64,000 nt of DNA from Nitrosopumilus sp. Its GTDB lineage: Archaea > Thermoproteota > Nitrososphaeria > Nitrososphaerales > Nitrosopumilaceae. Below the pieces are notes generated by a model, which saw only the letters and a list, made by a program, of their open reading frames with translations, ran no database searches and had not been told where the DNA came from. Within the stretch, counting starts at the first letter, position 1. Every line of letters starts with the position of its first letter. The position numbers and the translations under genes are program-made. Below are positions 50,775 to 64,000 of the stretch, piece by piece. The DNA is taken from assembly GCF_025699125.1 (NCBI RefSeq), contig NZ_JAILWC010000001.1:290884-354883 (forward strand), written 5' to 3'.

Positions 50775-51947
50775 ATGGATGCTGTTCTCATTCTCATATC
50801 TTGGTTAATACTACTAGTTCCAGGATTTGATGACTCTGTTCCTGTTACTTCTGACAAAGTTTTCAAAATCGAGACTAGTCCGGATATGATTCAGTCCATT
50901 ACAACACGTTCTGATGAATCTCTGGATTTTTTGGGTTTTGATGTTAAATTAAACCAAAATTCTACTGGAATTCTTGAGATCAAAATTCCAAAAAACTTGT
51001 CAACTCCTGCAAGCTTTACTAATTCATGGCATTATGACGCAAATCCAATCATACTAGCAGATGGTGCTGAAATTGGTTATGACATAATCCCAGATCCATG
51101 CTATTCTCATTACAAGATTCCTGTTGATGAGAAGACAAACTTGGAGATTCTCTATACAGTTATCTTGACAGGTTCGTGGCAACTTTACAGTCCCATACAA
51201 TTTGATGAAAACCACCAATGCTACAACAAGGTGTTTTATGAAAAATTTCCGAAGTCTGCTCTAAACCAATTTCAAACCGCTATAATACAATGGAATTCTC
51301 GATGTTACTCTACTCATGATGTTGCAACTGTTACTGTGATTGATCAAGACATGAACGTTGATCCTAATGTTCCAGACCAGTTTCAAATTACTGTATGGTC
51401 TGATTGGATAGAAGAAGAAACAGGAGAAAGCAAGATTTTACCTGTAAATGTAATTGAGACTGGAAATTCTACTGGTGTTTTTGAGAGCCTTGTGTTTCTT
51501 GGAAGTGCATATGATGAGACATCCGGGCACAGAATTCCAGTTGGAATTGAAAATACTATCTTTGCAAAATATGTAGACTATACAGTATCGTCTTCTAATG
51601 AACTAAAAATAATAGAGACTACCTCTGCAAAAATTCTTTCAATTGGAGGTTCTTGGGAGAGATGGGAAGAATTTTCATCTCTTTATGACATCCCTCTGGT
51701 CTATGATCCGTGTTTAAAAAAACAAATGGATCTTGTTGGCACTGGAGATGAATTTGCACAACTTGACATATTTTATCCTGCACCTCTCAAACAAATTGAA
51801 TCTGGATTGTTTGTTGATGAGATAATATGCAAAGACGGACTTACAATGCTGTTGTCTCCTAAAGACTCTAGACCTGTTTGCGTAACTGAAGACACTTTTA
51901 ACAAACTAATTCAAAGGCATTGGGGAATTTTAGTTTCAAGGGGATGA
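50775..51947 (+). CDS. Secreted protein with S-layer Ig-like domain and module A (390 aa)
   Basis: The signal peptide is MDAVLILISWLILLVPG. The region about 185-290 (ATVTVIDQDMNVDPN, then STGVFESLVFLG and IFAKYVDYT) is the Ig-like domain found in thaumarchaeal S-layer-type proteins and again in the 58340 product. The C-terminus is module A: CKDGLTMLL, later PVCVTEDTFNKLI and a terminal HWG in place of RGW. Stop and next start overlap as ATGA. It is extracellular by its signal peptide; function unknown, a surface component. Confidence 0.75.
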   Translation: MDAVLILISWLILLVPGFDDSVPVTSDKVFKIETSPDMIQSITTRSDESLDFLGFDVKLNQNSTGILEIKIPKNLSTPASFTNSWHYDANPIILADGAEIGYDIIPDPCYSHYKIPVDEKTNLEILYTVILTGSWQLYSPIQFDENHQCYNKVFYEKFPKSALNQFQTAIIQWNSRCYSTHDVATVTVIDQDMNVDPNVPDQFQITVWSDWIEEETGESKILPVNVIETGNSTGVFESLVFLGSAYDETSGHRIPVGIENTIFAKYVDYTVSSSNELKIIETTSAKILSIGGSWERWEEFSSLYDIPLVYDPCLKKQMDLVGTGDEFAQLDIFYPAPLKQIESGLFVDEIICKDGLTMLLSPKDSRPVCVTEDTFNKLIQRHWGILVSRG

Positions 51948-54178
51948 AAAGTAGACTATTGATAATTGTTGTAATGCTGATGATGGTAATCACAATTACA
52001 ACAAATCATGTGTTTGCAATGTGTGCATATGATCCTACTAATCCCCACAAACCATGCGATGATCTTCGTGCTATGCTGATTATTGAATCACATGAAACTC
52101 AACTTAAAAATATTGATGGAAAATTATATCATGTTATTGGTCCGTTTACTCTACAAAGTCAATCGGAAGATGCAATTCGTTTAGGGGATACTGAATTCAC
52201 ATATCCCTATTATCCTGTACCTATACCTCCTGGGGGAGTAATGACAGTCGAAATTACCTTTTCTGATGGGATCAAAGAATCAATTGGGAGAGTTGGACCG
52301 CCTACTCCATTTATTGAATTCACAGACCACGATGATCCCAAGGCAGGAGTTAAACACAATTCAGATGGCACGTTTAATTTTCTACTAAGCGTTGAAACCA
52401 ATTCTATTTTACCATTAAAACAACTCAAGTTAGCAATTCCATTTGATGAAATACAGTGCAAAGACGAATTAATTTTAATCCAAAAGTATGATGGCTCCCC
52501 TGCATGTGTAACAGAGTCAACCAAACAAAAACTAGTTGAGAGAGGGTGGATAAAAATAGAAATCAAAGACTCGAATAATTCATTACTACAGAAATGGACA
52601 TACGATACAAAGGGCGAAATATCCAGTATTGATATTTCAAAGGATGACTCCATTATTGTAGTAGGTACCGCAATCAGAGACACCCAGAAGGGAATGTTGT
52701 ATCTTTTAGACAATGATGGGATGCTTTTGTGGGAAGAGGAGTTTGATAGTATGATCAATCATGTAGATATATCAAACAATACAATTTTGGTGAACGGATT
52801 TCATATTTGTGGAGGAGGTGGAGGAGCGAGAACACATTGCAACTATACTGTAGATATTTTTGACATTCAAGGCAATAATATACAAAGCTACGCTCATGAT
52901 GACAATACTTCTTTTGGAGCATCGCTTTCGCCAAACGGAAGTCAGATAATCACTCATACCTATGATGTGCTAGAATACTTCGATATCCAAGAAAATGATT
53001 CTTGGATGTATGATCCAGATGAATCAATCAGACATGCGACATTTCTTACAGATTCAACATTGCTAGTAAATACAGACAACGCAGGAGAAATAATCGCACT
53101 AGACAATACTGGAGATGAATTGTGGAATTTTGCCACAAACTATCCAGACAACTATTCCTATGCAACTTCAAGCAATGGAAAATATTTCGCTGTATCTGAT
53201 TATACAAGTCCAGACGATGGAAATATCTACTTGTTAGATTCCAATGGAAATCTTTTGTGGCAAGCCAATACAGGAAACACAGTATTGCATCTGGAATTTT
53301 CAGGTGATGATTCCCGCATCTTAGCTGAATTAAACGGTGCATTCATGGTGTATGACATGCAGGGAAATCTGCTGTGGAAGAACAACATTCCATCTAATCT
53401 GACAATGTCTTCATTTGGCTCATTTCTGCTAGGAACCATATTCAATCAGGGTTCTGGTGCCAGCATTACATTGTTTGACGGTAAGGGGAACATACTTTCC
53501 AACTATCCTGCTGACAAAGAAAGTCTAGGTGCTGTTTTTGCGCTTGCAAACAGCGATGAATACTTTGTAATGGCAAATGACACAAATCAACTCGTAATGT
53601 TTGAAGTGATTCCTGATTTTGATAAAGTGTACTATGATCTTACAGATATTCGTGATTCTGAGGATCTTCATGTCAAAATTGTGCCAAAAATTCCGGGATT
53701 ATTTGATGTTGCAATTGCAAAAGGTGATTCCGTAGAAATTCCATGGGACATAAAATTTGAGCAAGGATACGCTAGATCAAACTTTGATGTATCGATTGCA
53801 TCTGATTCTGATATAGAATCTCAAATAACTCCTACCAGTCCTTACACTCCAATCAACGGGGTGCCTCCAGGCGAAAAAATAATTATCATTCATCCTAAAC
53901 CTGATGCAACCACAGAAAACTATACCGTACAAATTCTTGGAAGGGGAGACACAGTACACAACCAAACGGGATGGATGACAAACCTTGATGGAAAAATACT
54001 GGGAACAATCAATGTCAACGTGATTCCAAAACCGTTGGGTCTTCAAAGAGTTTTAGACAGTTGCAATTCTACTGGAATTCAACCTAGTGTTGGATATAGA
54101 TATTCAAATGACACTCATACCATTGCCAACAATTCTTGTGAATGGCAGACTATTGAAGAATATGAAAATGAAAACTAG
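51944..54178 (+). CDS. Secreted beta-propeller protein with modules A and B (744 aa)
   Basis: It starts at the cassette ATG 51944 (MKSRLLIIVVMLMMVITI) overlapping the previous stop by 4 nt. After an Ig-like region comes module A (FDEIQCKDELILIQKYDG, ACVTESTKQKLVERGW at about 166-207). From about 218 to 550 a PQQ/WD40-like propeller repeats units such as GMLYLLDNDGMLLW and GNIYLLDSNGNLLW, five or more blades. The C-terminus is module B (about 700-741: NDTHTIANNSCEWQTI) and ends ENEN because those codons are the next cassette. Surface protein; partner unknown. Confidence 0.8.
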   Translation: MKSRLLIIVVMLMMVITITTNHVFAMCAYDPTNPHKPCDDLRAMLIIESHETQLKNIDGKLYHVIGPFTLQSQSEDAIRLGDTEFTYPYYPVPIPPGGVMTVEITFSDGIKESIGRVGPPTPFIEFTDHDDPKAGVKHNSDGTFNFLLSVETNSILPLKQLKLAIPFDEIQCKDELILIQKYDGSPACVTESTKQKLVERGWIKIEIKDSNNSLLQKWTYDTKGEISSIDISKDDSIIVVGTAIRDTQKGMLYLLDNDGMLLWEEEFDSMINHVDISNNTILVNGFHICGGGGGARTHCNYTVDIFDIQGNNIQSYAHDDNTSFGASLSPNGSQIITHTYDVLEYFDIQENDSWMYDPDESIRHATFLTDSTLLVNTDNAGEIIALDNTGDELWNFATNYPDNYSYATSSNGKYFAVSDYTSPDDGNIYLLDSNGNLLWQANTGNTVLHLEFSGDDSRILAELNGAFMVYDMQGNLLWKNNIPSNLTMSSFGSFLLGTIFNQGSGASITLFDGKGNILSNYPADKESLGAVFALANSDEYFVMANDTNQLVMFEVIPDFDKVYYDLTDIRDSEDLHVKIVPKIPGLFDVAIAKGDSVEIPWDIKFEQGYARSNFDVSIASDSDIESQITPTSPYTPINGVPPGEKIIIIHPKPDATTENYTVQILGRGDTVHNQTGWMTNLDGKILGTINVNVIPKPLGLQRVLDSCNSTGIQPSVGYRYSNDTHTIANNSCEWQTIEEYENEN

Positions 54179-54938
54179 GCTCTTGATAATAATCTGCATC
54201 GCCGTTTTTGTTGCAGTCATGATTCTATTGAATTTCTCAATAGTAAAAGATGACCAGTCATACGTTTTATTTTGTACTCATTATGTATTCTCAAATTCTA
54301 GAACTTGCACAGTTCTCTGGCATGAAACAGAACCACTTGATGATATTAGTTATGATTCAGAATCAAGCTTCTCACAGAAATACCAAATATCTATACTCCA
54401 AAACACAAAAACAATGAGGCAATACGTATCTCCTGATTTTATAACAATCGGTCCTGGCAGTAAAGTACTTTGGTATAATTCTGATAAAACTCCAGTTACG
54501 ATAAACTCCAACGATCCTGACAATCCTTGGAGTACTGGAGTAATCTTGCCTGATGAGTATGCTACTGTGACGTTTGATGAGCCTGGAATTTACGAGTATC
54601 ATGGAAGACCTGGAATCAATGGAATCATTGTTGTTATGGATGATGATGGGACCCCGCTTACATCAGAATTTAGCGAAGTGTTTGGTAATGGAAGTCCACT
54701 AGTATACAATGATGGAATGAGGCCCGTTTTTCTTTATGATAATTGTAATCGATATGCATATTGGTTAAACGCGCATGGTAAAGAGAAAATAGATTTGCCT
54801 GAAGACTATCCACGATATCCGCCATGGGGAAACCAGATTTTCCCACTTGTTGAGTTTTGTACTAGTAATGGGGAACTGGTAAAAACCATATCAGGCAATA
54901 ACATTCGTTGGGAGTTTAGAATAGAAAATGAAAACTAA
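54168..54938 (+). CDS. Membrane-anchored cupredoxin-fold protein lacking copper ligands (256 aa)
   Basis: It starts at cassette ATG 54168, inside the previous gene (11-bp overlap). Signal/anchor: MKTRLLIIICIAVFVAVMI. The region about 85-165 has cupredoxin order (FITIGPGSKVLWYNSD, then ATVTFDEPGIYEYHG and INGIIVVMD). However, the usual first His (after the PVT strand) and the Cys are absent and only one His remains, so copper binding is unlikely. A second extracellular part follows with Cys (YDNCNRYAYWL, EFCTSNG). It ends ENEN at the next cassette. Confidence 0.75.
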   Translation: MKTRLLIIICIAVFVAVMILLNFSIVKDDQSYVLFCTHYVFSNSRTCTVLWHETEPLDDISYDSESSFSQKYQISILQNTKTMRQYVSPDFITIGPGSKVLWYNSDKTPVTINSNDPDNPWSTGVILPDEYATVTFDEPGIYEYHGRPGINGIIVVMDDDGTPLTSEFSEVFGNGSPLVYNDGMRPVFLYDNCNRYAYWLNAHGKEKIDLPEDYPRYPPWGNQIFPLVEFCTSNGELVKTISGNNIRWEFRIENEN

Positions 54939-55437
54939 GATTTTGATAATCATTGGAATTGTTTTGACAATTTCTATTACAAGCGCATTTATCTTAAATT
55001 ATTATGTTGATGAGAAAATAAAAACTCAAAAGTTTAACGAAGTACAAATAGATAGAATTTTCAAACGATGTGATTATCAAAAAATGATGGATGAAAGAGG
55101 CTGGATCGGCCTTGATGGAAACAAAATTCTTGATCATCAACCGTTGTATGTGTGGAGCAACTCTACTCATCATCTTGATAATAATATCTGCAATTGGCAA
55201 ACCATTGAAAAATACGAATCTGATGCTAATCTTAGAAATGCTTTAGCCAGATGCTGGACTGGAAACAGTGAATTCCTCGCTGATGATTTTGTATTATGGA
55301 ATAATGTGACACATTACATAGATACTGATACTTGTTTAATCACTGAGACAATTCATTCTGAATCCGAATCTGTCAAAATTAAAGTCTGTCGGGGTGAGTA
55401 TGACCCTGAATGGTGTGGAGAAGGTACTGATCCTTGA
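54928..55437 (+). CDS. Anchored protein with two module B copies (169 aa)
   Basis: Cassette start ATG 54928, 11-bp overlap with the previous gene. Anchor MKTKILIIIGIVLTISITSA. It consists of two module B copies: about 41-90 (CDYQKMMDERGWIGLDG, NSTHHLDNNICNWQTI) and about 97-140 (LARCWTG, NNVTHYIDTDTCLI). Each contains an N-x-T-H glycosylation-type sequon and a Cys pair. The TGA overlaps the next TTG by 3 nt. Function unknown. Confidence 0.72.
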   Translation: MKTKILIIIGIVLTISITSAFILNYYVDEKIKTQKFNEVQIDRIFKRCDYQKMMDERGWIGLDGNKILDHQPLYVWSNSTHHLDNNICNWQTIEKYESDANLRNALARCWTGNSEFLADDFVLWNNVTHYIDTDTCLITETIHSESESVKIKVCRGEYDPEWCGEGTDP

Positions 55438-56408
55438 AAACTAGGCTCTTGATAACTATCTTGTTGACCGTATCAATCCTTATCCCTATGACATCATTTG
55501 CACAAAAACCCGTCAACTGCTATTTTGGAGATGATTCTGTATCACTTGATGACATCTTTGAAAAAGACATGGCAGTCAAGGCATTTACTGAAAAACATCC
55601 CAATGCGATACGGCAAGTTGTAATTGAGCAAACAGATCCTCTGCAAGGAAAAATCAGTTTCACAACAGATGACAATGGCAAAGAAGAAATCCTTTTGATA
55701 AAATTCAATCAAAATGAAAACGGATGCTATAGACCATACCCGTATATCTATTCCTATGATGATGGAATAATTGATGGTACAGTACAATACTCTGTACTCG
55801 ACATCACTGAGATAATCAATCTGATAAAACTAGAAGACAAGAAAATAGAGCACTTTTACGCCAAAAACTGCAATACTATCCAATTAGATGCTGTATTGGA
55901 CGGCAACTCAAAACCGTACTTTTGCAAATCTGATGTTAATGGTTCCATAGAGATGCACCTTCAAAAACATGTTGGTGGAACAGTTGAGGTTCACATCAAA
56001 GACAAAGCAATGGATGCTTTGTTTTACAACTGTGTTATTGATGGTTTTATGGTGTTAAACAATAATGAAGAAATATCGTATGAGTTGGTTGTTGAGGAAG
56101 ACAAGAAAATATTCAAGTTCGAGTTTTTGCCAGGATACAACGAGGCAGAGATTGCAGGATTTTCCTATGGTGGAGGCAGTGGATTTTGCGGTTCAATATG
56201 GGGTGATGACTCTAGATATATCTCTCCGCTACTGCAAACAAAGATTGGCGTTGAACCTTGGATGGTCAAATGTAATGATGATATGACTTTGTTGCTAAAA
56301 CCTACAGAATTCACAACATCTGCTTGCGTCACTGGTGAAACTGCTGATAAATTGTCTCATAGGGGATGGAGCATCGTCTTGTCTCAAGATGAATATTCTG
56401 ACTGGTGA
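55434..56408 (+). CDS. Secreted protein with C-terminal module A (324 aa)
   Basis: The cassette begins with TTG here (TTGAAAACTAGGCTCTTG). Signal peptide MKTRLLITILLTVSILIPM with an AQ-type cleavage site (MTSFAQKP). The middle is beta-rich with several Cys. Module A is at the end (CNDDMTLLL, then SACVTGETADKLSHRGW). 56409-56491 separates it from the next gene. Extracellular; function unknown. Confidence 0.75.
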   Translation: MKTRLLITILLTVSILIPMTSFAQKPVNCYFGDDSVSLDDIFEKDMAVKAFTEKHPNAIRQVVIEQTDPLQGKISFTTDDNGKEEILLIKFNQNENGCYRPYPYIYSYDDGIIDGTVQYSVLDITEIINLIKLEDKKIEHFYAKNCNTIQLDAVLDGNSKPYFCKSDVNGSIEMHLQKHVGGTVEVHIKDKAMDALFYNCVIDGFMVLNNNEEISYELVVEEDKKIFKFEFLPGYNEAEIAGFSYGGGSGFCGSIWGDDSRYISPLLQTKIGVEPWMVKCNDDMTLLLKPTEFTTSACVTGETADKLSHRGWSIVLSQDEYSDW

Positions 56409-56462
56409 TCTGATTTTATCCTCTTATTTCTAGAATAAAAAAATCTCATAGATTAGAACAAC

Positions 56463-56483
56463 TTATGAGTATAATGTACTGAG
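56463..56483 (+). promoter_or_regulatory. Promoter element shared with 57994-58014
   Basis: TTATGAGTATAAT (56463-56475) followed three bases later by CTGAG. The same 13-mer and CTGAG occur at 57994-58014. The TATA-like part is 21-22 nt before the ATG at both sites, suggesting leaderless or near-leaderless transcription. Confidence 0.6.
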
Positions 56484-56491
56484 TTTGATTA

Positions 56492-56725
56492 ATGCAAGTG
56501 TATGTTCGCAAAGAGGTTCAGGCATTTGAGTATGTCTCTTTTACTGAATTTAAAAATGAGGATGAGTTAGATTTTTGCTGTGAGAGATTAAAGAAATATG
56601 TTTCAGTTGTAAAATCTTGGAGTGGCAAAATTGGGAAATTCTGTATTGTGGAAAAAGATGTTCTTACTCCGATTGATTACTGTCCTTTTTGCGGTGAAAA
56701 AATAGAGTGTGTTTCGGTTGAATGA
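56492..56725 (+). CDS. Small zinc-ribbon protein (77 aa)
   Basis: A soluble protein without signal peptide, unlike the surface genes around it. C-terminal YCPFCGEKIEC is a zinc-ribbon (C-x2-C-x4-C); an N-terminal Cys pair (DFCCERLKKY) may complete the site. It begins about 20 nt after the TATA element at 56463. Four nt separate it from the next cassette start. Function unknown. Confidence 0.65.
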   Translation: MQVYVRKEVQAFEYVSFTEFKNEDELDFCCERLKKYVSVVKSWSGKIGKFCIVEKDVLTPIDYCPFCGEKIECVSVE

Positions 56726-56729
56726 GAAT

Positions 56730-56864
56730 ATGAAAACTAGATTTTTGATACTTGTTGGAATTGTTATTCTTGTAAGAATTATTCTATTGTCAATCTTCTC
56801 AATAGTAAAAAGATACAATAATTTATCAAAACAAATAGAGTATGACAAGTATGAATCGATTTAG
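56730..56864 (+). CDS. Cassette-derived single-helix membrane peptide (44 aa)
   Basis: ATG 56730 to TAG 56862-56864. It starts with the cassette (ATGAAAACTAGATTTTTG) and encodes an anchor (MKTRFLILVGIVILVRIILL, then SIFSIVKRYNN) and about 15 further residues. The stretch ATTCTATTG...TTCTCAATAGTAAAA matches the 5' part of the 54168 gene, so this is probably a truncated paralogue. It overlaps the start of the 56842 gene by 23 bp. Confidence 0.55.
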   Translation: MKTRFLILVGIVILVRIILLSIFSIVKRYNNLSKQIEYDKYESI

Positions 56865-57903
56865 ACTGCTTCCTCCAACTGTGGATGATTTTGATACAAC
56901 AATAGTGCGCATTGGAAAAAGTCAAATGGAAAAGATGGGATTGCACGACGGTGACACAGTAAAGGTTACTGGGATGAAATCCTCAGGTGCATTGTGTTAT
57001 TCTATAGATGATGATTTTAAACTGCCAAATGATTCAGATATCACATATCTGTCAGAGAATCCTACAATTTTGCCCTCTTTGAGAGCAGGCAACTTTGTTG
57101 GATACAACATCAACCGTCATGGTTCAGGGCTAATTCCAGTAAGTGTGGAAAAAGTGTATGAGGGTACACGTCCTGCAAGCAAAGTTTGCCTAATGTCTCT
57201 TAACTCTGGCTCGGATGATGAAAGTTTTGCCAGGAGCAAGCTTGATGCATTGATTGTATGTGAGAATGATCGACTAAATTTTCGAGATGCCGTGCCGCAA
57301 AACAACTTTGGGTATCACATTACATGTGTTGAGCCTTCAGATTATGCCCAAATCACCAAAGATACTGTAATAGAATTTGTAAAGATAAAACCAGACAAGA
57401 TAAGTTCCTTCTTTAGCGGTCCCAAACTAGAAAGACTGCAAGATGTGATTCCTATCGTATATCAGGAAACTCTGAATGATGTGAATGTAACAATACCTTC
57501 ACTTGAAATCTTTGATACTGGGATTCGATTTGCCTTATACATAAAAAGTGATTTTGAACCTAGTCAGACCATTCAAAACGGAGCAACATCTGTAGTTGTT
57601 ACTCTGGAGGATGACCTTGGAAATTTGCATGAACTGACCAACCACGGTGGTGGAGGTTCAAGTTCCCAGAATGGGTTTGAATACAAACACGAGTTTCTTG
57701 GAAAACCTTTGCATCATGATGCAAAGCAAATTACCATTACGCTGCATGAGATCCTCATTCAAGAACGTTTTCCAAGAGAAAGTCCAGGTTCTGTGTCACG
57801 CAAACCAATGAGGGGAACAAAAGAGGAATATGCAAAAATTGACAAGTTTCCTGCATTTGTTGTTATTTCAGGTCCTTGGACATCTACAGTTCAATTAAAT
57901 TAA
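56842..57903 (+). CDS. CDC48-N-like double-psi barrel protein without AAA domain (353 aa)
   Basis: No signal peptide, so cytoplasmic. Residues about 5-100 match the N-terminal double-psi barrel of CDC48/VAT (DTTIVRIGKSQMEKMGLHDG, then DTVKVTGMKSSG and LRAGNFVGYNIN). A following stretch resembles the second N-domain (ASKVCLMSLN). The rest (about 200-350) is a beta-sandwich (NVTIPSLEIFDTGIRFALYI, QITITLHEILI). No Walker motifs. ATG 56842 or 56851 may be the start. An odd cytoplasmic protein in a surface-protein array. Confidence 0.65.
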   Translation: MTSMNRFRLLPPTVDDFDTTIVRIGKSQMEKMGLHDGDTVKVTGMKSSGALCYSIDDDFKLPNDSDITYLSENPTILPSLRAGNFVGYNINRHGSGLIPVSVEKVYEGTRPASKVCLMSLNSGSDDESFARSKLDALIVCENDRLNFRDAVPQNNFGYHITCVEPSDYAQITKDTVIEFVKIKPDKISSFFSGPKLERLQDVIPIVYQETLNDVNVTIPSLEIFDTGIRFALYIKSDFEPSQTIQNGATSVVVTLEDDLGNLHELTNHGGGGSSSQNGFEYKHEFLGKPLHHDAKQITITLHEILIQERFPRESPGSVSRKPMRGTKEEYAKIDKFPAFVVISGPWTSTVQLN

Positions 57904-57993
57904 TGATTAGAAAACAAATCAAAAATAAATGTGCACATCTTGACAGATTCAACAGTTCAAACCTGTATGGATTTGCATATTCAATAGAATGTT

Positions 57994-58014
57994 TTATGAG
58001 TATAATCATCTGAG
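57994..58014 (+). promoter_or_regulatory. Promoter element repeated from 56463-56483
   Basis: TTATGAGTATAAT at 57994-58006, then CTGAG at 58010-58014, the same arrangement as at 56463. The ATG at 58024 lies 22 nt after the TATA core. Copies of this block suggest promoter and leader were duplicated together. Confidence 0.6.
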
Positions 58015-58023
58015 AAAAAGAAA

Positions 58024-58257
58024 ATGAAAAGTAGATACAAAATAATGTCAATTTTAGTTATTGTTGGTGGTATTTTATTGACTGCTAATTTTACCGTGTA
58101 TCAAGAAGGGAATTTTGATTCACTACAAGACGAAGTAGTGATAGTTTGTGATATTAACTGGTTACAAAAACCAATTAATTGTAAACCCGTATTTCCTGAT
58201 GGATTTGATTTTAGTGCAGGAACTGACTCCATTACTAGAGAATCAACTTGGCCATAG
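58024..58257 (+). CDS. Small secreted protein from a cassette start (77 aa)
   Basis: Cassette variant ATGAAAAGTAGATACAAAATA. Signal MKSRYKIMSILVIVGGILLT, then a short mature part with two Cys (VIVCDINWLQKPINCKP), 11 residues apart. Ends STWP. No family. It may be a degraded module-B/A type protein or a small secreted peptide. Confidence 0.6.
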   Translation: MKSRYKIMSILVIVGGILLTANFTVYQEGNFDSLQDEVVIVCDINWLQKPINCKPVFPDGFDFSAGTDSITRESTWP

Positions 58258-58277
58258 GGAATTACTATGATTAGAAA

Positions 58278-58343
58278 ATGAAAACTAGATACAAAACATC
58301 AGAAGCACTTTTCAATGATGGGATGAATTTTCATACGGTATGA
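58278..58343 (+). CDS. Cassette micro-ORF (21 aa) overlapping the next gene
   Basis: ATG 58278 opens with the cassette (ATGAAAACTAGATACAAAAC), runs 21 residues without a hydrophobic signal, and its TGA overlaps the ATG of the 58340 gene as ATGA. The peptide is probably not functional. Reading it could deliver ribosomes to the next start, so it may be a translational leader. Confidence 0.4.
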   Translation: MKTRYKTSEALFNDGMNFHTV

Positions 58344-59170
58344 AGTATTTTGTAATTCTTCTTTTATTGATAGTATTTGTTTTACCTGACGTTTTTGCAG
58401 AATCTAGCGATTCTGCATTGGCTGATATTCAATGGAAAGAGGCTTCTTTCCCAAGTCATGCGGGTACAAAAGCCACAATAACTGTAACTGACAGTGACAT
58501 GAACAAACATTCTGAAGTAATTGATTACATATGGATTGACGTTCGTTCTGACTCTGATGGTGTAGGTTTTAGAATGAATCTATTTGAGACTGATTTTGAT
58601 TCTGGAGTATTTGAGAATGATGTGATATTTACAGGAACTGCTCCTTCTGGAGGTGGTTTTTTGCATACTGTGGACGGTGACACCATAACTGCAAAATACG
58701 TTGACAGAAATTTTCCTTCAGATTATGAATCTGAGCGTAGAAACATTGTTGTGACAGAAGACAAAATAGAGATGTTTGCAACTGCAATTGTTGGAAGCAC
58801 TGGTCCTCCAATGGAAAGAGCACCTGCATCAAACTTTATGGTACTTGATATAAGAAAAACCCCGATAGAAAACAATCTGATTGCAGTTGATCAACAAATA
58901 AGACTAGTTTCTGATCTGGAAAATCAAATGAGTCGTATTCAACCATTTGCATATCTAGTTCAAATACATAATGAGCAAAATCAAGTAGAGTCTTTGTCTT
59001 GGTTAACTGGAAATTTAACTGCATATCAAAAAATAAACTTGGGTACAACTTGGATTCCAATCAAAGAAGGAAAATATTTTGCAACAGTCTTTGTTTGGGA
59101 GTCCATTGACAACCCTACTGCTTTGTCCCCTCCACTACCACTGGAAATTTTTGTGAAAAATGAGAACTAG
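58340..59170 (+). CDS. Secreted protein with S-layer-type Ig domain (276 aa)
   Basis: Signal peptide MKYFVILLLLIVFVLPDVFA. The Ig-like domain (about 40-130: TKATITVTDSDMNKHSEVID, GVFENDVIFTG, GDTITAKYVDRNF) matches the S-layer-type domain of the 50775 product. A second beta domain follows (about 175-272). It ends FVKNEN because the next cassette begins inside it. Expected at the cell surface; may be an S-layer accessory or adhesin. Confidence 0.75.
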   Translation: MKYFVILLLLIVFVLPDVFAESSDSALADIQWKEASFPSHAGTKATITVTDSDMNKHSEVIDYIWIDVRSDSDGVGFRMNLFETDFDSGVFENDVIFTGTAPSGGGFLHTVDGDTITAKYVDRNFPSDYESERRNIVVTEDKIEMFATAIVGSTGPPMERAPASNFMVLDIRKTPIENNLIAVDQQIRLVSDLENQMSRIQPFAYLVQIHNEQNQVESLSWLTGNLTAYQKINLGTTWIPIKEGKYFATVFVWESIDNPTALSPPLPLEIFVKNEN

Positions 59171-59216
59171 ATACATTATTTTTGCATTAATTGGAGAAAA
59201 AGAAAATGAAAACTAG
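59160..59216 (+). CDS. Cassette micro-ORF (18 aa) joining two genes
   Basis: ATG 59160 is within the last codons of the 58340 gene (11-bp overlap). The micro-ORF reads MRTRYIIFALIGEKENEN and stops at TAG 59214-59216, overlapping the next cassette ATG 59206 by 11 bp. It is essentially cassette followed by cassette, so a naked duplication. Its RNA may be read by ribosomes passing between the two genes. Confidence 0.45.
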   Translation: MRTRYIIFALIGEKENEN

Positions 59217-59245
59217 GCTTTTGATAATTATTGGAATAATTGTGC
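59193..59245 (+). repeat. Leader cassette, best-preserved copy
   Basis: GGAGAAAAAGAAA, then ATGAAAACTAGGCTTTTG, then ATAATTATTGGAAT. The same order occurs at 62344-62395; partial copies start at 51944, 54168, 54928, 55434, 56730, 58024, 58278, 59160, 59861 and 61785. It includes ribosome-binding site, ATG and the basic plus hydrophobic start of a signal peptide. Confidence 0.8.
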
Positions 59246-59871
59246 TTGTTTCAGTTTCATTTTTTTCTTATCTTCAATGGGGAACTGGAACCCCCTCTCA
59301 ATTACATTGCATGTTTAACAAATGCGGTATTGAATTAGGGGGAAGAGTTGTGTATCCTACACTAGATCCCACCATGTCTAGAAATTCTGTAGGCATTTCA
59401 TCTGAACCTAGAATTACAGGAAAGATGGCGCAAGAAATTTGCTCCATCACTGGGGGTGAATGTCCTCCAAATTATCCTGCAAATATTCAGGAGGATGGTT
59501 CTAAAATGACAATAGTAACAACTTGGGATGCAGATACAAACACGGAAAAATCATTTGTTTTTATCATCAAAAACAATACTCTGAGTTATGATGTCCATGT
59601 AATAGACAAAGACGTACATCCACATCCATTTGATACAACAACAGAAAAGAAACAACACACTGTAGATCCGATATACATAGAGAATCCCCACAATTCTGGT
59701 GAATTAGTGTTAGATCTTGATTCCATGCAACAAGTTCAAAAAATTTTAGATTGGTGTCATCGAGAATCATTAGGATTTGGAGTTCTTGATATAGGTCTGT
59801 CTTTTAAAAATGAAACTCACTATATTGATAATAATGATTGTAAATGGAAAAAAATTGATAATGAAAACTAG
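59206..59871 (+). CDS. Anchored protein with C-terminal module B (221 aa)
   Basis: ATG 59206 (TTG 59191 would add five residues). Anchor MKTRLLIIIGIIVLVSVSFF. The middle has Cys (HCMFNKCGIEL, EICSITGGECPP) and a beta domain (KTMIVTTW-like strands ending NNTLSYDVHV). Module B closes it (ILDWCHRESLGFGVL, NETHYIDNNDCKWKKI) and it ends NEN at the next cassette. Function unknown. Confidence 0.72.
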   Translation: MKTRLLIIIGIIVLVSVSFFSYLQWGTGTPSQLHCMFNKCGIELGGRVVYPTLDPTMSRNSVGISSEPRITGKMAQEICSITGGECPPNYPANIQEDGSKMTIVTTWDADTNTEKSFVFIIKNNTLSYDVHVIDKDVHPHPFDTTTEKKQHTVDPIYIENPHNSGELVLDLDSMQQVQKILDWCHRESLGFGVLDIGLSFKNETHYIDNNDCKWKKIDNEN

Positions 59872-59884
59872 ATACAAAAGATAA
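59861..59884 (+). repeat. Cassette remnant (7-codon ORF)
   Basis: ATGAAAACTAGATACAAAAG followed by TAA: the cassette start without a gene behind it. Its ATG lies inside the last codons of the 59206 gene. The following GATAAGAAGG resembles the tail at 58278. A relic or leader for the 59925 gene. Confidence 0.5.
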
Positions 59885-59924
59885 GAAGGGTTTATCAACA
59901 TCAAAATTTCAAAATTACCATATC

Positions 59925-60260
59925 ATGAAATCTCTGCTTGTCGTGATGTCTGTTGCTATTCTGGGCTTGTTTGGCACTGCATATGCTCAACCATTAGATG
60001 ACATTAGTGCAACTGTGCTTGAATATGATGATTCCCTAGCATCAGTACACTTGGCATGGAATCATGATGATTCCATATCCAGCTATGATATAGGATGTGT
60101 AAGTTGTATTCCTAATTTCTCAGAAAACACCACTTATGATGAAATAGTCTTGTCTGACATTACTTCACTTGAAAATGGCATTGCTATTCTCTATGTCATT
60201 GCATATCATGATGATGGTGACATGATTACTGCAAAGCAGGTAATGTTGGAGTTATCTTGA
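59925..60260 (+). CDS. Small secreted fibronectin-like protein (111 aa)
   Basis: Signal peptide MKSLLVVMSVAILGLFGTAY with AQ-P cleavage region. The mature part is about 90 residues with fibronectin-III-like strands (SVHLAWNHDDSISSYDIG, AILYVIAYHDDG) and two close Cys (GCVSCIPN). It does not use the leader cassette consensus. Extracellular, function unknown. Confidence 0.68.
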   Translation: MKSLLVVMSVAILGLFGTAYAQPLDDISATVLEYDDSLASVHLAWNHDDSISSYDIGCVSCIPNFSENTTYDEIVLSDITSLENGIAILYVIAYHDDGDMITAKQVMLELS

Positions 60261-60336
60261 CATTTTTCTAAAAAAAACCCTGTTCATCTGTGCGTAAACT
60301 CCAAAATTTTACTAATAATTCATCAGTGTTTATTAT

Positions 60337-61788
60337 ATGGAAAAACTCAGTCGATTTTTCATGGTTGGCGTGACAATTCTTGGAATTTGTGTTGTTTTTG
60401 CATTTTTTATCACAAGTCCTGCTTTTGCCCAAGAACCAGTTGAGACAAGCAACCAGACCACACTGTCAGGTGATCTCTCAAACAATCCAGTAGCACAAGA
60501 CATTCTAAAAAAGATAGAGCAGACAAAAAAATGGATCAAAGACCTAGAACAAAAAGATTATGAAAGACTAGAGGCGCAAAAGGAACTGGAGGCAAAAAGA
60601 GCACAATCTCTCCAAATACTGAATCAGGATCTGGCAGACTGGGAAAAACTGTGGGATTATTATTCCTCTTACAACGCTTTTGAGAGGTTTGTAGACAAGA
60701 TTCCTGACTCTCAAGTGCAAGATGTTTTCTGGGACCAGTTTGAATTCAAGGAACAAAAAGTAGAGGCAGGACGAGATGCATTCAAACAAGTGATTGCTGA
60801 TGGCGGTTCCAGGCGTGATGCACTTCAGGCATATCTTGCAGCAGCTGAGACCAAACGAATTGAGCTTATTGAAACAAATTCACAGTTTAATGTGAACCAT
60901 AACTTGGCATATTACTCGCAGCAAATCCTTTTTGATAAAGAAGGACAGTTCATTGATTCTCCGATTACTGGTGAGCAGCTACGAAAATACTATGAGGATT
61001 ACAGGACAAACCCTGCATATCTTCAGGCAAATCCTGACGATGCTGTTTCATGGGAGGATCTTGGCAAAACTACTCCTGACACCGAATGCCGGGAGGGAAA
61101 TGTTGTAGTGTATAGATTTCATGCAGAAGATTATGTCTGTGTGAGCGTGTCTACTGCAGAGATGTGGGTGCGACATGGGATGGGTGAGATTACAGGTGAC
61201 GCACAAAATAGATTTGCACAAGAACCAATCACACCACTTACAAAATGCAATGACGGATTCAGCGTGATATTTAATCTTGAAACCCAGAAATATTCCTGCG
61301 TACCTGATGATACTGCAAAAGAATGGACAGAACAAGGGCTGGCAGAGTTTCATAATGTAGATGACTATGTTGCAACCAGCATTGAGAATAAAGACAAATC
61401 TGTAAGAGTCGAGGAAGTGAATTTGCAAATACGAGAAATGAAAAAAGAACTTGAGGAAAAACAAATCGAGCTAAAAAAAGAATACGACAAAAAATACGAT
61501 GATGCCATATCCCAATCAAAAATAGATGAAAAGAATGCAACTGTTGACTATAACCAGCGCACCGGCATGTCAAAAGAAGAATTGAGCATAAAGATTGGCG
61601 AGATTAGGGAAAATCTTGAATCAGAAAAAGAATCCATTCTTGAGAACAAGATTGACGACTTGAAGAACCTTGAAAAAGAATTCCAAGACCGCATGAAAGA
61701 ACTGGTTTCTCTTTATGAGAGTGATCCATATGTCGAGGTCAGATTGAACATGGGTCATACCGGATATGAAGCAGTTTCCAGACAATGA
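60337..61788 (+). CDS. Secreted coiled-coil protein with two module A copies (483 aa)
   Basis: Signal region MEKLSRFFMVGVTILGICVV. About 50-110 are coiled coil (KKIEQTKKWIKDLEQKDYE). Two module A-like copies lie at about 247-285 (CREGNVVVYRFHAEDYVCV, STAEMWVRHG) and about 302-338 (CNDGFSVIFNLETQKYSCV, DTAKEWTEQG), with RHG/EQG in place of RGW. A second long coiled coil covers about 345-465. It ends SRQ with TGA overlapping ATG 61785. Likely a surface rod or stalk. Confidence 0.75.
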   Translation: MEKLSRFFMVGVTILGICVVFAFFITSPAFAQEPVETSNQTTLSGDLSNNPVAQDILKKIEQTKKWIKDLEQKDYERLEAQKELEAKRAQSLQILNQDLADWEKLWDYYSSYNAFERFVDKIPDSQVQDVFWDQFEFKEQKVEAGRDAFKQVIADGGSRRDALQAYLAAAETKRIELIETNSQFNVNHNLAYYSQQILFDKEGQFIDSPITGEQLRKYYEDYRTNPAYLQANPDDAVSWEDLGKTTPDTECREGNVVVYRFHAEDYVCVSVSTAEMWVRHGMGEITGDAQNRFAQEPITPLTKCNDGFSVIFNLETQKYSCVPDDTAKEWTEQGLAEFHNVDDYVATSIENKDKSVRVEEVNLQIREMKKELEEKQIELKKEYDKKYDDAISQSKIDEKNATVDYNQRTGMSKEELSIKIGEIRENLESEKESILENKIDDLKNLEKEFQDRMKELVSLYESDPYVEVRLNMGHTGYEAVSRQ

Positions 61789-62360
61789 AAACTATATTCT
61801 TGATAATTGTTACATTTGTAATGGCTATACCAATAACTGAATCCTTTGCCGAACCAATTGAAATAAAACTTGGCGAAACTATTCTCTATGAAAATTTGAA
61901 TTTATCTTTTTATGATATAAGGGATTCTAGGTGTCCTTTGGATGTGACATGCATTTGGGAAGGAAAAGTTACAGCCATGATTAGCACTAGCAACCAAACT
62001 CACAAAATTGGAGGGCTTTTTGAAATTGGCTATCCTCTTACCTACATGACACCATATACAATTACTCTAATTGATGTAAAGCCACATCCAATCAGCACTG
62101 AAAAATCAGACTATGTTGCAATCCTTGACGTATCAAAAACAGAAAAAAATATTGATGCAAACTATGTTGACTTTCGTAATGCGTCCGGTGAAATCATTGA
62201 AGTTGGATGCAGTACTGGTTTGAGGGCATTCCCTAATGACTCTTTTGACAATGATGTTTTATTTTTTTTTAAATGTAATCCAAGTTTAACATTGATTCTA
62301 GTGCTAGTCGTTGGAGTTATTGTTGGAATTATTTTTATTGTCTGGAGAAAAAGAAAATGA
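61785..62360 (+). CDS. Secreted protein with C-terminal membrane helix (191 aa)
   Basis: Cassette variant start ATGAAAACTATATTCTTG. Signal peptide MKTIFLIIVTFVMAIPITES. A Cys motif DSRCPLDVTCIWEGKV matches a small extracytoplasmic domain seen in many bacteria (CPxxVxCxWxG). The C-terminus has a membrane helix (SLTLILVLVVGVIVGIIFIV) with basic tail RKRK, so it is anchored at both ends or at the end only. The stop overlaps the next ATG by 3 nt. Confidence 0.72.
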   Translation: MKTIFLIIVTFVMAIPITESFAEPIEIKLGETILYENLNLSFYDIRDSRCPLDVTCIWEGKVTAMISTSNQTHKIGGLFEIGYPLTYMTPYTITLIDVKPHPISTEKSDYVAILDVSKTEKNIDANYVDFRNASGEIIEVGCSTGLRAFPNDSFDNDVLFFFKCNPSLTLILVLVVGVIVGIIFIVWRKRK

Positions 62361-64000
62361 AAACTATGCTTTTGATAATTGTTGGAATTATAGTTTCAAT
62401 TAGCATTGTTTCAATTCTAATGAATGCAGATCAAGCATTTGCATTTTGTGATGCACATTCTGAACCTTGTTTTCAAAGAATTAAAACATATGATAAAATT
62501 GATGAACATTTTGTAAGAAATTACATTTTTGATTATGCTGATGATGTTTTTGTCCATTATGATTGGCCAAACAAATCAGTTAATGTGGCAAATAACTTTG
62601 ATGGGTTTCCTGCAGTTTATTGTTTTGAAATAATTGCTGATGGTGAGCCACATTTTCTCATGACCAATTGGATAGATCACAAAAGCATTTCTAACATAGT
62701 GGATATGTATGTGCCAGAATTGTGTGAACAATCACTCAACCCAATTAATTCTGAAAACAGACCTGATTCTTTGTATGTAAACAAGTCTATGAACACTCTG
62801 ACTCCTGAACCTGATATGTTGATGCTTTCCACTCCTCCTCTGCACCCTGACGATCTGAAAAGTTGTCTACTTGGAGATTTTGATGATAAAAATTACAAAT
62901 GGTGTAACAATTACAAAGAGAAGATAAAATTACTGCCTCCACTAAAGCAATTCAAGTCCGGAGTTCCAATTGATGATATACAATGTAAAGACAATCTGCA
63001 TCTTATTCAGAAACATGACGGTGCTCTTGCATGTGTAAAACCAAAATCAATAAACGCTCTTGTTTTTAGAGGGTGGACTGATGATAAATTCCGAACTCTG
63101 CCAATAATCGACTTTCAAAACCCAGATAGGATTTTTCGTGAGGTTGGGTATTTGGGGCTGATGATGCTTCTTCCACACATAGAAAACCAGACTGTAGCAA
63201 TATCGCTTGAAGGTAAACCAAACATGGTTTTACCGATTATTCAATATTATGAGATAGAAATTTTATCAGAAAAAACCAATACAAACGAATCTTTTTCAAG
63301 CGTTTTTGGAAAAATTACCAAACCCCACCTTCAAAAATTCTTTGAGGAAAATCCGATGAATCTTTTTGTCAAACGTGGGGTGCTATTGACATCATTGGGG
63401 GGATATCACGATAATACGGGAACCAATGGACCATTCAACCAATTTCTTACCGACAAAGAGTCTCAGATAATTGGGGATGCTTTGAATTATTATGAAAACA
63501 AGAGAACAAATGGAGAGAACGTACACTTTAATGATTTTGTCAAATGGCCAACCGGCAAAATCAATGAGTCATTTCTTCAAAAATCAAAACTTCTGGATAT
63601 TGCAAGTATAGAAGACAATCGCATTACATTGAATCCAACAGACACATGTGCACATATATCACTTAGACTACTTTCTGCAGACAATCTAGAGCAATACCAG
63701 TCCAGAGATAAAGAGATTCGATTTTTTGAAATTACCAAAACTGATTTGGAAAAGTTACCTGTTTTAGATGAATTAATTCAGGCAACCCATCATCTGGAAT
63801 TTACAACAAATGATGATGCACGTGCGGAAATGGGTTTACGAGAACTTGTAGACTATGAGTTTTTCATTATGGGAAAAGCAATTGACAAATATGATGATTC
63901 TCAAGATGACTATTTTGTCAAACTTGATGGTAATCTAGATGAGAAACTTGCAGATCCGAAACCACAGGGATTCTCAAATGAATTTTTATCTCCTCAGCTA
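62357..64000 (+). CDS. Large secreted protein with module A, 3' end outside window
   Basis: Cassette start ATG 62357 (MKTMLLIIVGIIVSISIVSI). The frame stays open for 548 codons to the end. Signal peptide, then Cys-containing domain (FCDAHSEPCFQRI), then module A at about 195-235 (PPLKQFKSGVPIDDIQCKDN, ACVKPKSINALVFRGW). The rest has no recognised domain and no membrane helix so far. It continues past the window, so its full nature is unknown. Confidence 0.75.
   Translation, partial: MKTMLLIIVGIIVSISIVSILMNADQAFAFCDAHSEPCFQRIKTYDKIDEHFVRNYIFDYADDVFVHYDWPNKSVNVANNFDGFPAVYCFEIIADGEPHFLMTNWIDHKSISNIVDMYVPELCEQSLNPINSENRPDSLYVNKSMNTLTPEPDMLMLSTPPLHPDDLKSCLLGDFDDKNYKWCNNYKEKIKLLPPLKQFKSGVPIDDIQCKDNLHLIQKHDGALACVKPKSINALVFRGWTDDKFRTLPIIDFQNPDRIFREVGYLGLMMLLPHIENQTVAISLEGKPNMVLPIIQYYEIEILSEKTNTNESFSSVFGKITKPHLQKFFEENPMNLFVKRGVLLTSLGGYHDNTGTNGPFNQFLTDKESQIIGDALNYYENKRTNGENVHFNDFVKWPTGKINESFLQKSKLLDIASIEDNRITLNPTDTCAHISLRLLSADNLEQYQSRDKEIRFFEITKTDLEKLPVLDELIQATHHLEFTTNDDARAEMGLRELVDYEFFIMGKAIDKYDDSQDDYFVKLDGNLDEKLADPKPQGFSNEFLSPQL

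Follow-up and report, generated by a model that had tools for sequence, protein, structure and literature searches.

A start sequence repeated through a gene array

The stretch of DNA analysed here (the window; 64 kb, C1:290884-354883 of a Nitrosopumilus genome of 1.85 Mb) contains an array of genes in which an 11-bp core, ATGAAAACTAG, recurs. With up to one mismatch the core was found at 12 sites within 51944-62367, every one on the + strand (Table 1), which bears out the count of at least eleven shared start sites made in an earlier note on this DNA; the whole window holds 15 such matches, against 2.9 expected from shuffles of the window. The flanks described in that note proved less regular: of the sites, 59206 and 62357 alone have an intact GGAGAAAAAGAAA before the core, with a nearly intact one at 58024, and ATAATTATTGGAAT after it has its single exact copy at 59206, with near matches at 54928, 56730 and 62357. 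Its statement that such a cassette starts most genes holds with exceptions, as four of the 12 copies start no real gene (58278, 59160, 59861, and 56730 with its short ORF). The extent of about 10.5 kb was drawn too narrowly: the array runs on to about C1:383 kb, and a second cluster lies at 740-778 kb. An 18-mer taken from the earlier note gave seven sites at up to three mismatches (0.22 expected), and 33 places in the genome against four for the reversed pattern, concentrated at C1:342-382 kb and 740-777 kb.

Table 1. Core copies and associated features in the array, in window positions.
Feature	Position	Strand	Remarks
Core copy 1 (ATGAAAAGTAG)	51944..51954	+	Start of beta-propeller gene 51944-54178 (PQQ_2-like)
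Core copy 2, exact	54168..54178	+	Overlaps ENEN-stop of the propeller gene; starts gene 54168-54938
Core copy 3 (ATGAAAACTAA)	54928..54938	+	Overlaps ENEN end of preceding gene; starts gene 54928-55437
Core copy 4 (TTGAAAACTAG)	55434..55444	+	TTGA overlap with preceding stop; starts gene 55434-56408
CPFCGEK gene, 77-aa zinc-ribbon-like product	56492..56725	+	Ends just before a core
Core copy 5, exact	56730..56740	+	Leader present; ORF of only 44 aa
Core-to-core unit (77-aa leader gene)	58024..58288	+	Core at 58024; 84% identical counterpart in the G118 array
Core copy 7, exact, leaderless	58278..58288	+	Followed by promoter-like repeat upstream of MKYF-leader gene 58340-59170
Core copy 8 (ATGAGAACTAG)	59160..59170	+	Forms KNEN-stop of gene 58340-59170
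Core copy 9, exact (59206-59216), with fullest flanks	59193..59242	+	Starts gene 59206-59871
Two-gene unit (111 aa; 483-aa coiled coil)	59861..61795	+	Between leaderless core 59861 and core 61785
Core copy 11 (ATGAAAACTAT)	61785..61795	+	Starts gene 61785-62360
Core copy 12 (ATGAAAACTAT)	62357..62367	+	ATGA overlap with WRKRK-stop of gene 61785-62360

The products behind the core differ, as the earlier note had also read them: 27 clusters were obtained from this genome's 31 leader proteins, and the full-length homology of bodies that simple tandem duplication would leave is not seen. Most proteins of the window are without a Pfam match; the first contains a PQQ_2-like propeller. A cupredoxin fold had been proposed for the 54168 protein and was set aside, since the plastocyanin/amicyanin matches are marginal (best E 0.016) and a single-sequence model was unusable (pLDDT 39). 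Among 203 leader genes the median length is 207 aa, and about 60 of them, by a rough filter in which some false positives are visible, encode a C-terminal hydrophobic stretch with a basic tail (e.g. WRKRK). A module of the form ...CKD.L.L....DG.PACV...T..KL..RGW recurs in otherwise unlike array proteins (14 of the 203), with places in the window at 52500-52620 (in gene 51944-54178), 56260-56380, 61220-61330 and 62980-63080.

The families common near cores are secreted proteins, the 483-aa coiled coil, zinc-ribbon-like proteins of 77-94 aa, CDC48_N/DUF5643 proteins and an HTH protein. The zinc-ribbon-like CPFCGEK family, which has no Pfam match, lies near cores in 8 of 12 genomes; the protein encoded at 56842-57903 has a weak CDC48_N match and a DUF5643 match, with relatives near the arrays of six genomes. 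Two further repeats accompany the genes. The hairpin-like AGTTCAAACCTGTATGGATTTG(AAC) is present at 57954-57975 and in many other array places, often with TATA-like AGAACACTTTATGA after it. Several genomes have it immediately behind the core (ACTAG followed by AGTTCAAACC), so that promoter or terminator pieces seem to be units too. A second repeated start region, TACAAAACATCAGAAGCACTTTTCAATGAC...TTTCATAC.GTATGAAGTATTTTGT, at 58290-58350 and many array places, precedes the MKYF genes and is a promoter with a different leader.

For the comparison with relatives, array loci were picked by DNA pattern, genes were called as simple ORFs and homology was taken from blastn, with one genome per species in the sample. 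Exact ATGAAAACTAG occurs 141 times in 862 kb of array regions, where shuffled letters predict 0.7 copies. The 11-bp core is a genus-wide feature of Nitrosopumilus; beyond the window's own genome, the search among relatives that the earlier note had proposed found the motif (up to one mismatch) in 12 of 37 same-genus genomes and in none of 24 genomes from the wider order. The stretch 59193..59242 gives blastn matches of 35-50 bp in dozens of same-genus genomes, where the bodies are not homologous. In public genomes a 25-mer was found only in records named Nitrosopumilus, Nitrosarchaeum, Thaumarchaeota or Nitrososphaerota and in two bacterial-binned contigs; a contig of N. salaria has the cassette. 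These two, L152 (binned Planctomycetaceae) and L157 (Saprospiraceae), are short and AT-rich (GC 0.35-0.39), and their low GC and a study prefix shared with a Nitrosopumilus MAG suggest that they are misbinned. Carriage by a virus or as proviral cargo was rejected, as a 22-mer is absent from the 2.9 million contigs of IMG/VR.

Anatomy and codon use of the joint

The fixed stretch is ATGAA(A/G)ACTAG (11 bp), within a non-redundant consensus, AGAAA-ATGAAAACTAG, that is the same for leader and leaderless copies. In the frame of the next gene the joint GAGAAAAAGAAAATGAAAACTAG reads ATG AAA ACT AGR, or M K T R, and in the other two frames it gives the upstream gene an end in ...RKRK-stop (the TGA of ATGA) or ...ENEN-stop (TAG). 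The core is therefore the start codon of the downstream gene together with a stop in each other frame (TGA at +1, TAG at +8), so that almost any upstream gene could be closed by it and any downstream gene opened. The ENEN endings had been correctly taken for last codons lying in the next cassette: GAAAATGAAAACTAG reads E-N-E-N-stop, and the next gene reads ATG AAA ACT AG. Genes of the window end in ...NEN at 54178, 54938, 59170 and 59871, and for other upstream genes the stop is the TGA within ATGA (...WRKRK-stop at 62360); an 18-aa stub ORF at core 59160 reads the next core in the third frame (GEKENEN-stop).

Across the 862 kb there are 294 cores, which overlap the upstream stop at TAG in 54 cases and at TGA in 88; in 107 the upstream stop precedes the ATG. 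No leader gene follows 32 of 140 exact cores, and 24 of these 32 do not serve as an upstream TAG stop either. Leaderless cores serve as unit boundaries too and, since they act as joints, the start function is not required of a joint.

The core and its surroundings are also far more uniform in synonymous codons than a signal peptide needs, in line with the comparison that the earlier note had suggested. Among MKTR leader genes of 12 genomes, Thr3 is ACT in 132 of 138 (41% in bodies) and Arg4 is AGR in 136 of 138 (66% in bodies); further into the leader, Leu6 is TTG in 85 of 98 genes (28% in bodies), Ile7 is ATA in 73 of 98 and Ile9 is ATT in 54 of 66. Adjacent Leu or Ile residues in the leaders keep unlike codons, so the uniformity is not due to codon preference. 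At Lys2 (AAA/AAG) and at the third base of Arg4 there is as much variation as in bodies. When all spellings of M-K-T-R-L-L were collected, the 18 places in this genome had ACT for Thr in 17 and AGA/AGG for Arg in all 18; 14 other genomes had ACT in 103 of 114 places, and two array-poor genomes had one place each, both with ACA. Signal-peptide constraint alone was rejected on these codon data.

Ends of homology and moved units

Pairwise alignment of array regions, which covers the search for breakpoints in the flanks proposed earlier, gave blocks with 86-97% identity whose ends fall inside the core and whose flanks are unrelated. At the level of sequence these blocks show homologous units in unrelated contexts, both within and between genomes, with homology stopping in the core on one or both sides. 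In the window's own genome, 54164..54963 (+) recurs at C1:378986-379785 with 96% identity; this copy begins and ends in cores, its flanks are unrelated, and its left joint may be at about +13, inside the leader; for the core at 54168 the upstream homology (in G063) and the downstream homology (the second own copy) fall at different loci. The unit upstream of core 55434 is 88% identical to its match in G013, with homology that stops at +10. The unit 59861..61795 is present in G118 at 92.7% identity, inverted, with the same bounding cores and other neighbours, and one body occurs in three contexts, twice in G066 and once in G095, at 95-96%. Two units abut at 61785 in the window; their homologues in G061 lie 5.6 kb apart, with four other leader units between them, and on either side the insert is joined at a core. 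At one chromosomal site with flanks 93-96% identical, G118 has an array of about 27 kb and G000 one of 4.4 kb; several units of the 27-kb array are dispersed in a G000 array 400 kb away, and in both genomes the array end at the conserved flank has a core. The order of about seven units hints that it is perhaps reversed between these two genomes.

The same pattern is seen in counts. Of 139 core pairs with homologous neighbours, 22 of them within one genome, 68 are homologous downstream only, 70 upstream only and one on both sides. Control gene starts more than 2.5 kb from a core were homologous downstream only in 14 cases, upstream only in two and on both sides in 21 of 37; core-free gene starts within 2.5 kb of a core gave 55, 12 and 4 (4 of 71). 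Core-free starts near arrays are thus also often broken, and general instability explains part of the effect. The ends are sharper at the core itself: homology ended within 30 bp at 57 of 59 touched core starts, compared with 49 of 141 other starts (Fisher p 8e-18). Between G000 and G118, which are about 92% identical, none of 13 joints is kept, the sole kept joint being within one genome.

In clear high-identity cases the left ends lie at or before about 0 and the right ends at +9 or later, which places the crossovers within the core; the earlier suggestion that short identical starts help recombination agrees with this, as recombination joints do fall at those starts. The idea that a ribosome-binding site and signal-peptide start form a portable piece was rejected on the profile of identity around the joints. 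Downstream-only pairs are 0.28 identical at -30 to -12 and 0.92 identical in the core; over +11 to +36 the values are 0.81/0.84/0.75, and the leader there is as similar as the body. For upstream-only pairs the values past the core drop to 0.52/0.54/0.39, which is what random leader pairs give (0.54/0.58/0.40), and bases -6 to -1 go with the upstream gene. The leader is thus part of the downstream unit: it travels with the body from codon 4 on, and the joint is the 11 bp ATG..ACTAG and not the leader. Units also appear to have passed between species. Matches of G066 with G095 that are not core-bounded have a median identity of 77%, while core-bounded units reach 95-96% and one block with an end in a core (G066 L100:7327-8321, G095 L105:15924-16916) reaches 97.4%, which suggests horizontal exchange.

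Origin of the array and comparison with known systems

We think it probable that this is a shuffling gene array, whose units are joined at the 11-bp core and moved by recombination, likely of the host's short-homology kind, with selection for a frame-safe joint. A unit would be a promoter piece, a few genes in a row or a single gene, which usually encodes a signal peptide and a unique body that is secreted or anchored in the membrane. Units would be joined head to tail by a single ATGAAAACTAG with AGAAA in front. Recombination at the core, most likely a host short-homology process acting on chromosomal or taken-up DNA, may move them, and selection may retain only joints that leave both frames intact, so that the core stays standard. 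The benefit could be rapid renewal of the secreted and surface protein set, with translation coupled across the overlap; the signal peptides and anchors suggest that it is the cell surface that the arrays renew. In Sulfolobus acidocaldarius, marker cassettes with arms of 50-10 bp were tested and efficiency rises with length (PMC5684531), which indicates that very short homology is usable by archaea in principle. Against the shuffling array stand the exact leaderless cores that serve neither gene, which must be read as relics.

The same cores are the chief reason why we regard a dedicated site-specific recombinase as a serious rival, unlikely as we hold it to be, for they mark unit ends. This enzyme would cut the core (about AGAAAATGAAAACTAG), and units would be excised as circles and inserted at other cores, in a true cassette system that is not an integron. 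Confinement of crossovers to 11 bp, boundaries at leaderless exact cores, the kept polarity of relocated units and the insertion between cores seen at 61785 against G061 all fit such an enzyme, as does a weak clustering of tyrosine recombinases, 10 of 25 of which lie within 20 kb of a core (4.2 expected, p 0.006), a clustering that could reflect site-specific recombination or only the position of arrays in genomic islands. The array-near tyrosine recombinases are, however, mutually divergent (below 37% identity except for one pair), and PF00589, present in most other genomes, has no match in array-bearing G022 and G036, on which grounds one array-linked tyrosine recombinase was rejected. Resolvase-type serine recombinases (PF00239) were rejected likewise, with none in 13 genomes, and among the scanned families common near cores no recombinase or nuclease was recognised. 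An integron was rejected on two tests: no TIGR02249 integrase passed the cutoff in 10 genomes (best 39 bits, cutoff 265), and eight 101-nt stretches round four cores, on both strands, folded no better than shuffles (z -2.2 to +1.4), the core having no attC-like inverted-repeat hairpin. With no recombinase tied to the arrays, short-homology host recombination is favoured. That ammonia-oxidising archaea have a gene-cassette system of their own kind, in which a recombinase acts on an 11-16 bp site made of a start codon and a two-frame stop and moves secreted-protein genes and promoter pieces between loci and species, is an idea we offer tentatively and consider doubtful.

The core could instead be kept for translation, as a site of coupled termination-reinitiation or an mRNA signal, with ordinary illegitimate recombination tolerated solely at the junctions of a packed operon. 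The start and both out-of-frame stops held in the core, the frequent overlap with upstream stops noted above and the freedom of position +5, where AAA/AAG is synonymous in both overlapping frames, agree with this. Yet the 107 cores that stay intact though a stop precedes the ATG, the 32 exact leaderless cores with no start to couple, the less exact breaks at other gene starts near arrays and the G118 joint of the 59861 unit, which has no upstream gene and only a 7-aa ORF downstream, make it quite improbable. Simple tandem duplication, with bodies diverging fast and leaders conserved, has in its favour a single clear duplicate pair in the window's own genome, besides three that are weak; the diversity of the 31 bodies, the small share of homologous core pairs within one genome and the restriction of synonymous conservation to the core surroundings make it barely credible, and as the main process it is refuted by the joint counts (68/70/1) and the 27 clusters.

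Few marine microbes are as abundant as Nitrosopumilus and its relatives, which carry out much of the ocean's ammonia oxidation; to our knowledge, little is known of variation in their surfaces. A standard joint able to close whatever frame lies upstream and to open the gene that follows would be a natural counterpart of the standard parts of synthetic biology. It would explain the large, species-unique sets of secreted proteins in Nitrosopumilus genomes, and the core offers a signature for tracking the exchange of units in metagenomes. With an enzyme involved, this would be a new recombination system; with none, it would show that short homology together with selection is able to produce an integron-like array where there is no integrase.

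In the open-access literature no account of a joint of this type was found; the closest known systems compare with it as follows. Integron arrays, archaeal ones included, are alike in being long and of one orientation, with mostly unique units and a short repeated site, and in having units that are gained, lost, reordered and exchanged between species, as is seen here (PMC9668308). The present arrays differ from them in having no integrase over the family cutoff and no folded attC-like site; their joint also supplies the next gene with its start codon and first residues, and promoters form part of some units. Archaeal MAGs are reported to contain integrons; the words Nitroso- and Thaumarchaeota are absent from the main text of that report (PMC9668308). 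The Mycoplasma vpma/vsp/vsa loci, with their Xer1-type recombinase, also form a multigene surface-protein locus, in which recombination near gene 5′ ends changes what follows a shared start region (PMC2268961). The sites of vpma-type loci are located in the 5′ untranslated region (-1 to -72), the locus has a tyrosine recombinase gene next to it and DNA inversion switches one promoter (PMC2268961), whereas here the joint falls within the coding start, units move as a whole and none of the recombinases found is specific to the locus.

The integrated mobile elements of Thaumarchaeota are likewise variable islands of the same archaeal group, often with tyrosine recombinases, and have been sorted as proviruses, casposons, ICEs, cryptic elements and IS-like transposons; 'signal peptide' and 'secreted' are absent from the main text of that survey, and its few mentions of cassettes concern other things (PMC6563490). 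Dark matter islands share many small, fast-changing secreted or membrane proteins and are most abundant in Thaumarchaeota, and the passages found there describe neither a conserved joint nor unit shuffling (PMC4158269). Conotoxin families, in which cysteine codon conservation has been discussed (PMC3823881), resemble the arrays in that codons are conserved beyond the need of the residues beside hypervariable sequence; those are eukaryotic venom genes, whereas here there are direct breakpoints, which show recombination at the conserved stretch.
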